Origin: Magnetospirillum sp. SS-4
GTDB lineage: Bacteria > Pseudomonadota > Alphaproteobacteria > Rhodospirillales > Magnetospirillaceae
Length of the DNA stretch: 64,000 bases
Reading direction: 5' to 3'
Assembly (NCBI RefSeq): GCF_902729425.1
Contig: NZ_CACVCH010000125.1
Coordinates: 62,001-126,000, forward strand
Position 1 is the first letter of the stretch, and every line of letters begins with the position of its first letter. Below the pieces are notes generated by a model. That model was not told where the DNA came from and made no database searches. It worked only from the letters and a program-made list of their open reading frames with translations. Below are positions 47,255 through 50,765 of the stretch, one piece after another. Made by a program: the position numbers and the translations under genes.

Positions 47255-49300
47255 CTACCCTTCCACCGGAGCCCCGGTCCGGCTCGGTTGCGACCTGACC
47301 GCCTCGATCAACTGGTCGAAACGGACGATTCCCAGTTCGCGCAGGTGCTCGATCTGGCGCAGCAGAATCTCGGCGGCCAGCAGCGCCTTGCCGATCTCGG
47401 TCCGATGATCGCCGACCCGGAGGCCCAGGCGGCGGGCGACGGCCTCCAGGCCGTGATCGTCCGCGTCGGGGTCCAGCAGCCGCGACAGTTCCATGGTGTC
47501 GAGCACCGGCGGGATGGTTCCGGCGGCCTCGCGCTCCTCCAGTAATCCCAGGCAGGGGCCGATGTCATGCGCCACCAGCACCGCGTCGCCGGCGAAGGTC
47601 CAGAATTGCGGCAGCACCACCGGCAGGGGCGGCCGGCCGTCGCTGCCGGCGACGGTGGCGCTGATGCGGCGCTCGAAACTGCCGGCGGTCAGCAGGCGGC
47701 CGTCCTCGATGCGGACAGCGCCCAGGGCGGTGATGCGGCGGCGATCGCCGGACTGGACCGCCCCCGGCGGCAGGACGGCGCACACCGCCACGAATGGCAT
47801 GCGGTCGAGGGCGCGGCCGGCGAAGGCCCCGACCGTGGAGCGCCGCAGCAATTCCTCCCGCCGGTCGGCCTCGGTCAGGGAGGGCGGGCTGCCCAGTCCG
47901 GTCCATTCCTCCTCGGTAAACTGCGGACGCCGCGACGGCGGCAGCGGCAGGCGCAGGGCGGCGAACCCGCCGCGCTTGGCGAGACTCCAGGGCTGGCTGC
48001 CGTGACGTTCCAGCACATCGCGCACCGTCTGCGGCCCAAGCTGGGTGCTGACCCCGCCCTCCAGCCACGCGCCCAGACGTCCGTCGGGAATCGGATCGCC
48101 CTTCCAGTTGATGTCCACATAGACCTGCCGGTCGCCCAGCAGGCATTCCATGTCGAAGTCCGAACGGCCGGTATGGATGTGCAGGGCGGCGAACAGGGCC
48201 AGAAAGGCCTCCATCAGGCTCTGGCTGTCGCCGTGCAGCCAGAGCGGCACCCCCACCATGGTGAGGTTGATGTCCAGACGCTGCCTCAGCGACGCCGAAA
48301 CGCAGGCGAACAGCTCGGTGAAATGCAGGTCGGCCATGGGCCACGCCGTCCGGGACGGCCGGACCCGGCCATCGGCCAGGGAATCGACCCGGTGCCGCAG
48401 ACGCGCGCATTCCTCGCCGATCACCTTGATGAAGCGGGCGCGGTCGGTCCGTTCCATGTCCGGATACTCGCCCAGCATCTGCGCCGCCGCGTCCAGCGCC
48501 CCCAACGGCCCCCGCAGGTCGCGGGTCAGGGCGACGGCCACCGCGTCGTGGGGGGCGGAATCGGCCCAGTCCTCGCTGACGTCGCGGAATACCGCCACAT
48601 AGCCGGTGACGCCGTGGCGCGGAACCTGGACCAGCGACATCTGGCCATGCGCCACCCGATGCCCCTGGCGGATCAGGCAGGAAAACAGCGCGGTTCCGAC
48701 ATCGCCGCCCAGCCGCCCGCCCAGCGCGTCCAGCCGCGCCCTCAGGCAGTCGAGGGCGTGGTCGAGAGCGGCGCGCGGAACCTGGATGGACAGGCAATGT
48801 CCCTCGGCGAGGTTTCCCAGCAGCCGGACGGCGGCGGCGTTGTGGAACAGGATGCGGTGCCGGGTATCGCAGACCACGACGCTTTCCGCCAGGTGGCGCA
48901 AGGCGACATCCAGCCAGTTGCGCTGTTCCTCCGCCTGCTCCGCCGCCTGACGGCTGACCTGCCGGAGGCCGCGCCGCTGCTGGCAGGCGGCGTCGGCGAG
49001 ATGGCGGATGGCGTCGGGCAACCCGTCAAGGGCGAGCTTGGGCTGTGAATGCAGGGGGTGGTCGAGGGCGGGAGTCCGCAGCCACGTTTCCAGCGCCTCG
49101 GCCAGCCGGCCTCCGGGCTCCAGGATCAGGCGGTCGACCCGCCACCAGGCGAAGGCGAGCAGGGCGGCGGCGACCAGGGACGGCACCGCCTGCGACGTCC
49201 CCGCCGGCTGACCCAGCCACCAGACCGCCGCGAACGGCGCCGCCGCCGCCGCCAGGGCCAGTCCGAAGAAGGTCAGGGCGATCCAGGTTCTGTCCCGCAA
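47255..49300 (-). CDS. Fusion of histidine-kinase-like and DnaQ-exonuclease-like parts, both apparently inactive
   Basis: A 681-residue protein starting at TTG (GGAGGGG 5 bases upstream). Two membrane helices (7-30, 36-55) precede a PAS-like region (128-245). The kinase-like part (249-455) reads TRDLRGPLGAL where SHELRTPL is expected, so the phospho-acceptor His is Arg260, and the N-box Asn is lost (ALFAAL). The C-terminal part (500-660) follows DnaQ order, but exo I DxE is Cys507-Ala-Val509, exo II Asp is Cys583 and exo III Asp is Gly637; only His632 remains. It probably acts by binding. Exonuclease genes neighbour crbS in gammaproteobacteria, which supports the link to the SSS kinase. Confidence 0.75.
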   Translation of the reverse strand: MRDRTWIALTFFGLALAAAAAPFAAVWWLGQPAGTSQAVPSLVAAALLAFAWWRVDRLILEPGGRLAEALETWLRTPALDHPLHSQPKLALDGLPDAIRHLADAACQQRRGLRQVSRQAAEQAEEQRNWLDVALRHLAESVVVCDTRHRILFHNAAAVRLLGNLAEGHCLSIQVPRAALDHALDCLRARLDALGGRLGGDVGTALFSCLIRQGHRVAHGQMSLVQVPRHGVTGYVAVFRDVSEDWADSAPHDAVAVALTRDLRGPLGALDAAAQMLGEYPDMERTDRARFIKVIGEECARLRHRVDSLADGRVRPSRTAWPMADLHFTELFACVSASLRQRLDINLTMVGVPLWLHGDSQSLMEAFLALFAALHIHTGRSDFDMECLLGDRQVYVDINWKGDPIPDGRLGAWLEGGVSTQLGPQTVRDVLERHGSQPWSLAKRGGFAALRLPLPPSRRPQFTEEEWTGLGSPPSLTEADRREELLRRSTVGAFAGRALDRMPFVAVCAVLPPGAVQSGDRRRITALGAVRIEDGRLLTAGSFERRISATVAGSDGRPPLPVVLPQFWTFAGDAVLVAHDIGPCLGLLEEREAAGTIPPVLDTMELSRLLDPDADDHGLEAVARRLGLRVGDHRTEIGKALLAAEILLRQIEHLRELGIVRFDQLIEAVRSQPSRTGAPVEG

Positions 49301-49341: not shown

Positions 49342-49710
49342 CTACGGTTCCAGGTAATGCTTGATCAGCTCGGCGACCTCGCGGGTCGAAAACGGCTTGG
49401 TGACGTAGTCGTCCACGCCCAGGGCATACCCCTTCTCGCGATCGATCTCGCGCCCGCGCGCGGTCAGCATGACGATGCGCACCCCCCTCCAGTCGGGATT
49501 GGCGCGGATGGTCTGGCAGACGTCGTAGCCATCGCGCTTGGGCATCATGACGTCCAGCAGGATCAGGTCGGGAAGACGCTCGGCCACCGCGGCCAGGGCC
49601 GCTTCGCCATCGCGGGCGATGCGGGCCTCGTAACCGGCCTGCTTGACCAGGAATTCCAGGGAAATGACGATGTTGGGCTCGTCATCGACGATCAGAACGG
49701 AACGGGTCAC
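49342..49710 (-). CDS. Single-domain response regulator
   Basis: A 122-residue CheY-like receiver starting at GTG (VTRSVLIVDDEPN) after a GGGGGTG site. Phospho-acceptor Asp53 in LILLDVMMP, acidic pair in VDDE, and VTKPF with the conserved lysine. No output domain, so it probably acts by protein contact. It opens the unit that contains the kinase-like fusion and SSS kinase, whose likely partner it is. The spacer to the next gene is 41 bases. Confidence 0.9.
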   Translation of the reverse strand: MTRSVLIVDDEPNIVISLEFLVKQAGYEARIARDGEAALAAVAERLPDLILLDVMMPKRDGYDVCQTIRANPDWRGVRIVMLTARGREIDREKGYALGVDDYVTKPFSTREVAELIKHYLEP

Positions 49711-49783
49711 GTCACACCCCCATCGCACGGCGTTCTTTACTTTCCGTCCCTGATCATGGGGGTTAATTCGCCGCTCGCCAAGG

Positions 49784-49809
49784 GACTCTTTGCCCGAGTC
49801 TATTGACTC
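49784..49809. repeat. Three GACTC/GAGTC half-sites in the divergent spacer
   Basis: GACTC (49784-49788), GAGTC (49796-49800) and GACTC (49805-49809) form overlapping inverted repeats between the response-regulator gene and mlaA. They could serve as a regulator site for either. Confidence 0.3.
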
Positions 49810-49883
49810 GCGCTGCCGGCCATGCGAACGACACCATCTGGAACGCTGCGGATACGAACCGGCATCGACAGGAGGGACTGAGA

Positions 49884-50765
49884 ATGGCGCGCCGCTTTGC
49901 TTGCCTGATTGCCGCCTCGGCAATGGCCATGACGATGCTGACGGGCTGCGCCACGCTGCCGGAGGACCCGGAGGAGCGCGCCGAGGCCGAGGCCCTCAAC
50001 GATCCGCTGGAGCCGACCAACCGCGCCTTGTTCCAGTTCAACATGTACCTGGACGAAAACCTGATGGAGCCGGTGGCCGAAGGCTACCGCGATACCTTTC
50101 CCGACTGGTTCCGCGAGGCCATCCACAATTTCCTGGTCAATCTCCAGGAACCCTACGTCGCCGGCAACGACCTGCTTCAGGGCAATCCCCGCGCCGCCGC
50201 CGACGCCCTGGGGCGTTTCATGATCAATTCCACCTTCGGCATGCTCGGCTTTCGGGACGCGGTGGCGGAAAGTGGCGGTCCCAAGCCCCACAAGACCGAC
50301 ATCGGCACCACCTTCGGCGTATGGGGCCTTGACGAGGGGCCGTACCTGATGCTGCCGTTCTTCGGACCGTCCAGCCTGCGCGACGGCGCCGGCCGCGTCG
50401 CCGACGCCTTCGCCAGCCCCACCGGCTCGGTCATGGCCTCGCAGGGGCTGGGCGTCTTCAACACCGTCCAGACCGGGGTGGACATCCTGGACACCCGCAC
50501 CCAGTACCTGGACCCCATCAAGGAGCTGCGCCGGACATCGCTGGATGAATACGCCGCCATCCGCAGCCTGTACCGCCAGACCCGCGAGGCCGCCATCGCC
50601 GCGTCGCGTCGCGGCCAGCAGGCCCACGCGGCCGTCCCGGCGGCCGAGGGGGCGAAGCCGGGACCGGCCGCCGCGACGCCGGAACCGTCGGCCGCCGCCG
50701 ACGGCGCCGGGACCGACCCCAATGTCCGCCCCAGCGCCGTCGAGTTCGTTCAGCCGAAACCCTGA
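49884..50765 (+). CDS. mlaA: Phospholipid-transport lipoprotein MlaA (VacJ)
   Basis: A 293-residue outer-membrane lipoprotein with lipobox MLTGC (Cys22); the ATG follows AGGAGGG. The MlaA core is clear: DPLEPTNRALFQFNMYLDENLMEPVAEGY, INSTFGMLGFRDAV, TFGVWGLDEGPYLMLPFFGPSSLRDG. It removes misplaced phospholipid from the outer leaflet and passes it to MlaC. The C-terminal 60 residues are Ala/Pro-rich. mlaC is not adjacent here. Converges on the next small gene with abutting stops. Confidence 0.94.
   Translation: MARRFACLIAASAMAMTMLTGCATLPEDPEERAEAEALNDPLEPTNRALFQFNMYLDENLMEPVAEGYRDTFPDWFREAIHNFLVNLQEPYVAGNDLLQGNPRAAADALGRFMINSTFGMLGFRDAVAESGGPKPHKTDIGTTFGVWGLDEGPYLMLPFFGPSSLRDGAGRVADAFASPTGSVMASQGLGVFNTVQTGVDILDTRTQYLDPIKELRRTSLDEYAAIRSLYRQTREAAIAASRRGQQAHAAVPAAEGAKPGPAAATPEPSAAADGAGTDPNVRPSAVEFVQPKP

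Follow-up and report, generated by a model that had tools for sequence, protein, structure and literature searches.

What is the function of a protein that carries both a histidine-kinase-like and an exonuclease-like part when the active sites of both have been lost? The question is raised by one gene in a 64,000-nucleotide stretch of Magnetospirillum sp. SS-4 DNA (contig NZ_CACVCH010000125.1, positions 62,001 to 126,000), which is called the window here. The gene, at 47255-49300, is a single open reading frame (ORF) of 681 residues with a TTG start. A first-pass annotation had given the frame correctly and left its strand, which is minus, unstated. The purine-rich GGGAGGGG lies just upstream of the TTG, and a scan of the locus for promoters and terminators returned nothing above chance. 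From N to C terminus the protein consists of hydrophobic helices, a long helix, a PAS domain, a pseudo histidine-kinase core and a DnaQ-fold pseudo-exonuclease. We lean, with reserve, towards the reading that this fusion is a DivL-like pseudokinase which tunes the kinase or the receiver of its own operon, carrying a DnaQ fold that became inert when another copy freed it.

The two parts that the first-pass annotation had recognised, PAS/histidine-kinase-like and DnaQ-like, were both recovered by profile, AlphaFold and Foldseek comparisons. As a single sequence, the protein matched PAS_8 (E 5e-4) and HisKA (E 0.018), both under the Pfam cut-offs, and no HATPase match was found in Pfam for its CA-like part. 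Against DnaQ/PolC-type exonuclease models the best E values were 2e-11 and 1e-10, under the whole-protein cut-offs. A 28-row family profile matched the PAS-DHp-CA structure of VicK (4i5s, 7e-14), the PolC exonuclease (2p1j, 2.5e-42) and DnaQ epsilon (1j53, 2.5e-27). AlphaFold modelled the whole protein from the 28-row family alignment with a mean predicted local distance difference test (pLDDT) of 76 and a predicted template modelling score (pTM) of 0.43, placing a DHp-like hairpin at residues 251-278 and 284-309, a CA-like domain at 323-453 and a DnaQ-like domain at 503-655. WalK, VicK (4i5s), HK853 and DivL (4q20) were within the 50 best Foldseek matches of this model, at low template modelling (TM) scores of 0.14-0.22 by query length, as expected because the domains are placed differently. 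The exonuclease domain alone was modelled with pLDDT 90 and pTM 0.88 in a DnaQ/RNase H-like fold. Its best PDB matches were PolC 9qpc (TM-score by query length, TMq, 0.71), DinG 8zef and DnaQ epsilon 2ido (TMq 0.61). Since both AlphaFold alignments include intact relatives, the models show the fold of the family and are no proof that the window copy folds. An annotation or frame artefact was ruled out, as architecture and losses are common to orthologues from three other genomes.

The exonuclease site was compared in a 96-row alignment of the window protein and 95 ORFs from relatives (L, G and C numbers below are loci, genomes and contigs), one row of which, L021_1459, is an N-terminal fragment without the exonuclease. 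Adding 52 distinct sequences from named records gave 148 rows, and exonuclease tallies over this set count 147, leaving out L021_1459. In the 96-row alignment 83 rows have D-E-D-H-D at the five catalytic columns and seven have D-E-D-R-D, and the site is lost in five: the window protein (CVCRK), L002 (AVARK), L003 (AQCRR), L004 (H-CRR) and L041. In the 148-row set the acids are kept in 142/147 rows, and the His, like the complete site, in 135/147. The window protein has Cys507, Val509, Cys583, Arg633 and Lys638 in these columns, and 0/5 catalytic residues are kept. The 96-row alignment agrees with the first-pass annotation on Asp to Cys507, Glu to Val509 and Asp to Cys583. The annotation had further taken His632 as the only catalytic residue kept and Gly637 as the replacement of the last acid, and each of these is one residue off. 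Motif III aligns without gaps: its His column (His in 83/95 rows with the domain) falls on Arg633, its conserved Asp column on Lys638, and Gly637 is the conserved Gly of the motif, which rules out His632 as the catalytic His. The claim that both active sites are gone is therefore upheld, and the residual exonuclease residue is not.

Two other states of the site were observed among the relatives. L014, L075-L079 and L099 keep the four acids and have Arg in the His column (RH to HR), an intermediate state, and this Arg is common to the seven rows and the acid-lost orthologues. L041 (G030:C59) is apparently a separate case of acid loss, with other residues, another deletion, a long branch and a position at a contig edge.

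The loss extends to the substrate segment (window residues 535-563), which in PDB alignments overlies the HGI of DnaQ epsilon and its PolC equivalent, and which we take to line the 3'-end pocket and bind the 3' end. This segment is exactly 43 residues long in 135/135 intact rows and 7/7 rows that lost only the His. Its H[GN][IV] pattern is HGI in 112/135 intact and 7/7 His-lost rows, the other 23 being variants such as HGL and HHI. In the five acid-lost rows the segment has 29 (window), 30, 35, 12 and 19 residues, and the motif is gone in all. Because of this shortening and the missing HGI motif, it is probable that the acid-lost copies lack the classical substrate site in addition to the metals. 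Judged as a DEDDh exonuclease, the window fusion has the fold, without the D-E-D-D acids and the His and without an HGI-type segment (43 to 29 residues).

These losses bear on two other explanations. The first-pass annotation had proposed a binding function, in which the protein senses nucleotides or nucleic-acid ends and signals to a kinase. The predicted DnaQ fold is consistent with such a sensor, and the five site residues, whose median net charge is -4 in 83 intact rows, reach +2 in the four acid-lost orthologues, a charge that could hold phosphate with no metal present. However, end sensing is disfavoured because the substrate segment is lost (12-35 residues in 5/5 acid-lost rows versus 43 in 142/142). 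The net charge of the whole domain is still negative in the four acid-lost orthologues (-2 to -7), and the partner kinase has an SLC5 part of its own. We consider a nucleic-acid sensor quite improbable. A kinase as the recipient of the signal is the part of that proposal that is retained, since an SLC5/STAC kinase is present in the same operon. Hidden catalysis, with other residues standing in for the lost ones, is barely credible. The domain does have further acidic residues, such as Asp579 and Glu635, but when they were listed none stood at the five catalytic columns (a comparison by columns, with no three-dimensional search), Asp579 is Gly in L002 and L003, and the shortened substrate segment also argues against it.

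The kinase core has lost its site in another manner. The acceptor-His column of the window fusion is Arg260, as the annotation had it, and the N-box Asn columns are Ala368 and Ala372, again in agreement, with the register matched by eye to the N-box of the partner kinase. The DHp acceptor His was found in 0/139 family rows with a kinase core, and no His occurs at 258-263 either. These 139 rows are the 148 minus nine that are fragments or have no or a reduced PAS/DHp/CA part (two of L021, L044-L048, L119 and L031_10353). The acceptor His is absent throughout the sampled family, and the fusion core is a kinase fold without it, as in pseudo histidine kinases of the DivL kind. Aligning homologues, as the annotation had suggested, thus gives two answers: the replaced exonuclease positions are conserved in most relatives, whereas the His loss in the kinase core extends through the whole sampled family. 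Because the His is absent in 139/139 cores and the exonuclease acids are lost in five rows only, the two losses are separate; a single event was ruled out by the tree, the exonuclease tally and the DHp-His tally.

To what kinase the dead core is related was followed with a DHp-CA profile in 13 genomes. In 10/10 genomes with a full-hairpin fusion, the best match outside the fusion family is an SLC5 kinase, which adjoins the fusion in 9/10 and lies elsewhere on the chromosome in G051. Its E values, with the next match in brackets, are 5e-12 (9e-4) in G000, 3e-9 (3e-6) in G014, 4e-11 (2.5e-6) in G003, 3e-11 (1e-5) in G017, 3e-9 (3e-3) in G031, 4e-9 (4e-4) in G066, 4e-13 (1.5e-6) in G044 and 8e-15 (1e-6) in G051; G026 (2e-13) and G038 (4e-11) have no second match outside the family. 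In G008, G010 and G016, which hold only the other paralogue described below, the profile found nothing outside the family better than 5e-5. Other kinase ORFs of about 900 residues in this search were rejected as SLC5 kinases, as the five that were fetched match the model over the kinase core only; by eye, their N-termini look to us like KdpD. These matches are read most simply if the pseudokinase core derives, in degenerate form, from a copy of the core of its partner kinase. Convergence through shared binding partners could also account for the likeness.

A tree was built from columns 131-497, outside the exonuclease, for 87 of the 96 rows (the nine rows named above were left out here too), using a quick method with support from the SH-like approximate likelihood ratio test (SH-aLRT) only. 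All exonuclease decay falls in one 14-row clade (X14, support 94). One of its subclades comprises the window protein, L002, L003 and L004 (support 100), and the other has 10 rows (support 99), namely the intact L072 and L073, the seven His-to-Arg rows and L041, whose placement is unsure given its long branch and odd composition. By parsimony, two changes account for the loss of acids, and two for the loss of any catalytic residue.

The window orthologues in G014, G003 and G017 keep the frame and the domain order at 51-62% identity. Among the window protein, L002 and L003, the exonuclease domain is 61-69% identical, with nonsynonymous divergence (dN) of 0.26-0.33 and synonymous divergence (dS) of 0.76-0.86 (NG86, by which dS is probably underestimated). 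Its dN is 0.08-0.22 in eight pairs within acid-keeping clades, one of them a His-lost pair. The ratio of exonuclease dN to that of residues 131-455 is 0.8-1.4 among the window protein, L002 and L003, 1.5-1.9 in two L004 pairs and 0.4-0.7 in the eight within-clade pairs keeping the acids; the cross-clade pairs window-L005 (1.1) and window-L006 (1.0) are not counted in these ranges, and no dN is given for window-L041. CA-like identity (70-79%) was higher than exonuclease identity (44-69%) in 5/5 acid-lost pairs, whereas the exonuclease was the most conserved domain or tied in 8/8 acid-keeping pairs. Of the positions that 90% or more of the intact rows conserve, 60 in all, 21 lie in the motifs and 39 elsewhere. 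The window protein, L002 and L003 each keep 4/21 motif positions and, respectively, 24, 25 and 23 of the 39 others; L004 keeps 8/21 and 16/39. These results indicate that the exonuclease fold without its site is under a constraint that is relaxed but real. The annotation had taken the loss of every catalytic site, with length, membrane helices and domain order kept, to suggest selection for a binding function. Purifying selection on the exonuclease and the frame and order kept in three orthologues agree with this, but the losses were not one event, the constraint has relaxed and the substrate segment has been shortened.

The same data bear on the possibility that the exonuclease half is only a relic in decay, in a gene that is being lost as a whole and has no new function. 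The relaxed exonuclease dN, the further deletions in L004 and L041, the complete-exonuclease copy in all genomes with a degenerate copy and the absence of the fusion gene from two otherwise kept operons (both described below) would all fit. On the other side, the frame is open, exonuclease dN in the window protein, L002 and L003 is well under dS, and these three keep more than half of the conserved positions outside the motifs versus 4/21 within them. Moreover, Glu635 is fixed in 4/4 acid-lost orthologues, whereas every intact row (135) and every His-lost row (7) has Ala at this position (Glu in 0/142), and the DnaQ-fold model is confident, although built with intact relatives in the alignment. 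On balance we regard a mere relic as unlikely.

A second copy of the family shows the opposite state. Clade Y (27 rows) has a complete exonuclease site in 27/27 rows and a DHp segment of 36-52 residues in 27/27, versus 64-67 residues in 60/60 other tree rows. Neither the regulator nor the SLC5 kinase adjoins clade Y genes: 0/14 rows with wide context have either, and the other 13, seen on flanks of about 1.5 kb (some cut by contig ends), have no such neighbour, two of them giving weak 56-bit regulator matches only. In X14, the full hairpin is present in 14/14 rows, one neighbour or both in 14/14 and a complete exonuclease site in 2/14. The 11 rows of group X11 and the remaining 35 rows (Z) all have both the full hairpin and the complete exonuclease; a neighbour is present in 7/9 X11 rows with context, in the two X11 rows without wide context by a short-flank check, and in 29/34 Z rows with context. 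A degenerate operon copy is found in 12 genomes, and each of the 12 has, in addition, a Y or Y-like copy whose exonuclease site is complete (L032, L033, L035-L037, L044 and L218-L223; Y-like in G030). The Y copy also occurs without decay, as G028, G071 and G070 pair it with an intact operon copy (in G070 the Y copy is split). This complementary reduction is a strong pattern, with no statistical proof since the events are few, and the second copy may have come from duplication or acquisition alike.

The presence of Y or Y-like copies in 12/12 such genomes would also suit a dead exonuclease that regulates the intact Y paralogue as its subunit, with nuclease activity gated by the window protein in heterodimers. 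The two proteins of the window genome align over residues 6-665 and have the N-terminal helices and the PAS domain in common. However, their genes lie on different contigs (C120 and C51), and the hairpin of Y, the natural dimer interface, is shortened. Such a heterodimer seems improbable to us from these comparisons.

Further variants of the family were seen. At G008:C1:1671704-1673659 (L021, L067) an in-frame TAA divides a clade-Y type match into two ORFs (250 and 429 residues); this match is the sole one of the family listed in that genome, and it could be a pseudogene or a sequencing error. In the window genome the exonuclease profile has five places at E below 1e-29. One protein there (L031 10353-11885, C6), together with L048 and L119 1745-3289, is 484-515 residues long; its DnaQ-like site is complete, its N-terminal half differs, and it overlaps a CBS-domain-like ORF in L031 and L119. 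L045, L046 and L047 encode 298-301 residues, with neither PAS nor kinase core, and adjoin a CBS-domain-like gene, as well as an SSS symporter-like gene in L046 and L047. This short form may represent a simple ancestor of the family or a reduced member of it.

The genes around the fusion form a tight run on one strand, in the order receiver-only regulator, fusion (41 bases later), 80-residue protein (7 bases) and kinase (1 base). A receiver is the only Pfam match of the regulator at or above cut-off, and its true start is probably internal to the ORF. The small protein had no match above any family cut-off. The N-terminal part of the kinase matched 10ed_A with E 3e-66 over residues 7-577, which places it in the SLC5/STAC group, and its HisKA and HATPase domains gave E 1e-19 and 2e-31. 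The available part of PMC13022988 gives 10ed as the CbrXA SLC5-STAC structure. Coordinates are collected in the table.

Table. Features of the fusion gene and its operon in the window (positions of the 64,000-nucleotide stretch)
Feature	Position	Strand	Evidence
Response regulator with a receiver only, preceding the fusion gene; ORF of 193 residues, receiver at residues 76-187	49342..49923	-	Pfam, locus profiles
Fusion gene	47255..49300	-	ORF, Pfam, exonuclease models, profile, AlphaFold
Two N-terminal helices, residues 2-75 (putative membrane part, inferred from hydrophobic sequence)	49076..49297	-	AlphaFold helices 2-29 and 35-75
PAS domain, residues 131-245	48566..48910	-	Pfam, profile, AlphaFold
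DHp-like helical hairpin, residues 246-312, Arg260 at 48521-48523	48365..48565	-	Alignment, profile, AlphaFold
CA-like domain, residues 313-455, without N-box (Ala368/Ala372)	47936..48364	-	Profile, AlphaFold, Foldseek; register by eye
DnaQ-fold pseudo-exonuclease, residues 498-670	47291..47809	-	AlphaFold, Foldseek
Dead motif I, Cys507/Val509 (Asp/Glu in 142/147 rows)	47774..47782	-	Alignment
What is left of the substrate segment after shortening, residues 545-556, no HGI motif	47633..47668	-	Alignment
Dead motif II, Cys583 for Asp	47552..47554	-	Alignment
Dead motif III, from Arg633 in the His column to Lys638 in the Asp column	47387..47404	-	Alignment
Small hydrophobic CbrX-like protein, 80 residues	47005..47247	-	Position, tight spacing; CbrX likeness from the available part of PMC13022988
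SLC5/STAC-type sensor histidine kinase, 904 residues	44289..47003	-	HisKA/HATPase intact, no C-terminal receiver

Neighbour-gene profiles were run over 77 wider loci. The order receiver, fusion, small protein and SLC5 kinase recurs in window-like and intact members, and the window fusion, L002, L003 and L004 have the regulator upstream and the SLC5 kinase downstream in 4/4. The SLC5 kinases of these loci (58 rows) keep the His in 57/57 and the N-box Asn in 55/55 rows with letters, and the nearby receivers keep the phospho-Asp in 44/47. Among 55 genomes of the taxonomic family, 25 had a kinase match at E <= 1e-120; four of these, at 44-47% identity, were set aside, and 21/55 have this kinase type (at least 52% identity; partial or split in G070 and G073). 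The operon-type fusion is present in 19/21 genomes with the kinase type and in 0/34 others. Named records with the architecture, many of them metagenome-assembled, include Magnetospirillum, Phaeospirillum, Defluviicoccus, Magnetococcales, Cohaesibacter, Stappia, Halorhodospira, Alkalilimnicola and Thiodiazotropha. They came from a contig scan with a conserved exonuclease motif pattern, which is biased towards intact members, and the decay counts come mainly from whole-genome searches with the window protein, in which the sequence was taken for part of the listed matches. A CBS-domain-like gene (labelled CBS294 for its putative CBS and DUF294 parts) and an SSS symporter-like gene are often near family loci, and no CBS294-type gene was found in the 19 kb around the window fusion. 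A gene that we take from its sequence to be EttA-like (EttA being a translational throttle ABC protein) adjoins the locus in many relatives (L009-L013, L015, L045-L047, L059-L063, L085, L089-L092, L094-L098 and others).

How would a DivL-like pseudokinase act in this operon? We suggest that the window copy, relieved of its nuclease role by the second paralogue, would work through its pseudokinase half alone. PAS or membrane input would alter the DHp-like hairpin, which could dock the receiver in the manner of DivL and DivK~P or pair with the partner kinase in the manner of ChrS and HrrS. Either contact would bias the kinase/phosphatase balance of the SLC5 kinase, and the DnaQ fold may be kept as an inert module for folding, dimerization or protein contact. 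Several observations weigh against this. The operons of G065 (L242) and G022 (L243) keep the regulator, the small gene and the kinase without the fusion, which is therefore dispensable there. Two X11 rows (L031 and L074) and 5/34 Z rows have the full hairpin and neither neighbour. At H+7, +11 and +12 of the DHp, presumably the positions that set regulator specificity, the fusion has Gly, Ala and Ala versus Thr, Ser and Phe in the partner (by eye). The constraint on the exonuclease is relaxed, and in L004 and L041 the domain is eroded further. Finally, the events are few, with two exonuclease losses by parsimony and a DHp shortening that marks one clade.

In summary, the protein is a double pseudoenzyme that probably arose by division of labour in a little-studied signalling operon. 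It is no new kind of enzyme; pseudokinases and pseudonucleases are each known, and one protein with both is what is new. Its decay can be traced through relatives in graded states, from a complete site through loss of the His to loss of both the acids and the substrate segment. Together with the paralogue reduced in the opposite half, it looks like a bifunctional signalling protein divided between two genes. In relatives with a complete site the nuclease may itself be the output, because the receiver stands alone and the operon has no transcription factor. It is conceivable, though we hold it doubtful, that in many Alpha- and Gammaproteobacteria an SLC5 kinase phosphorylates a lone receiver, and that this receiver binds the pseudokinase half of the fusion and so switches a membrane DEDDh exonuclease; the window protein would then be a natural version that keeps the regulatory half and leaves this output to the second paralogue. 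If true, carboxylate sensing would be tied directly to nucleic-acid turnover in an operon without its own transcription factor. Among the titles and abstract excerpts returned by literature searches on nuclease-kinase fusions and related subjects, none described this architecture, with most subscription journals outside their coverage.

Repeated loss of a nuclease site is known from fungal Ssd1/Dis3L2, in some cases after duplication and with other regions conserved, as far as the available part of PMC8097288 describes. These proteins differ from the window fusion in that they are RNA-binding proteins of the RNase II family without a kinase part. On the kinase side, the fusion lacks both the acceptor His and, by eye, the N-box Asn of a histidine kinase. 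DivL of Caulobacter likewise uses PAS domains and a histidine-kinase core without kinase activity; DivK is a receiver-only protein, and we know of no DnaQ domain in DivL. According to the accessible portions of the two papers, DivL acts together with DivK~P, a regulator, and with the kinase CckA (PMC4211667), and the pseudokinase ChrS pairs with the kinase HrrS (PMC9491836). The window operon differs in having an SLC5/STAC protein as partner kinase, and its fusion has a putative link to the receiver, based on gene adjacency.

The downstream kinase resembles CbrA, whose SLC5-STAC structure 10ed it matches over residues 7-577. CbrA is preceded by a coupled small peptide, CbrX, and its regulator CbrB is of the sigma54 type, as stated in the text available of PMC13022988. 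A small hydrophobic protein likewise stands at close spacing before the window kinase, and its likeness to CbrX is one of description. CrbR and RpuR are LuxR-type regulators (CrbS/CrbR, equivalent to MxtR/ErdR, and RpuS/RpuR), as given in the part of PMC9100948 consulted. In contrast to these and to CbrB, the window regulator is receiver-only. The window system also departs from CrbS/CrbR in that no receiver follows the HATPase of its kinase. Unlike CbrA/CbrB, CrbS/CrbR and RpuS/RpuR, the window operon has the fusion gene between the regulator and the peptide.

A link between an exonuclease and such regulons is known in Pseudomonas putida. There the RNase_T-type exonuclease PP_0353 is in an operon with the CBS gene PP_0354, under MxtR/ErdR. 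ErdR binds the PP_0354 promoter, and growth on pyruvate is affected by PP_0353 through a mechanism described as unknown in the part of PMC9927547 that was available. By description only, this pair is like the family loci near CBS-domain-like and SSS symporter-like genes. Unlike PP_0353, the window copy appears catalytically dead, as its site residues are lost. The broader operon offers a hypothesis for the role of an exonuclease in carboxylate-use regulons, the question left open for PP_0353 (PMC9927547, same part).

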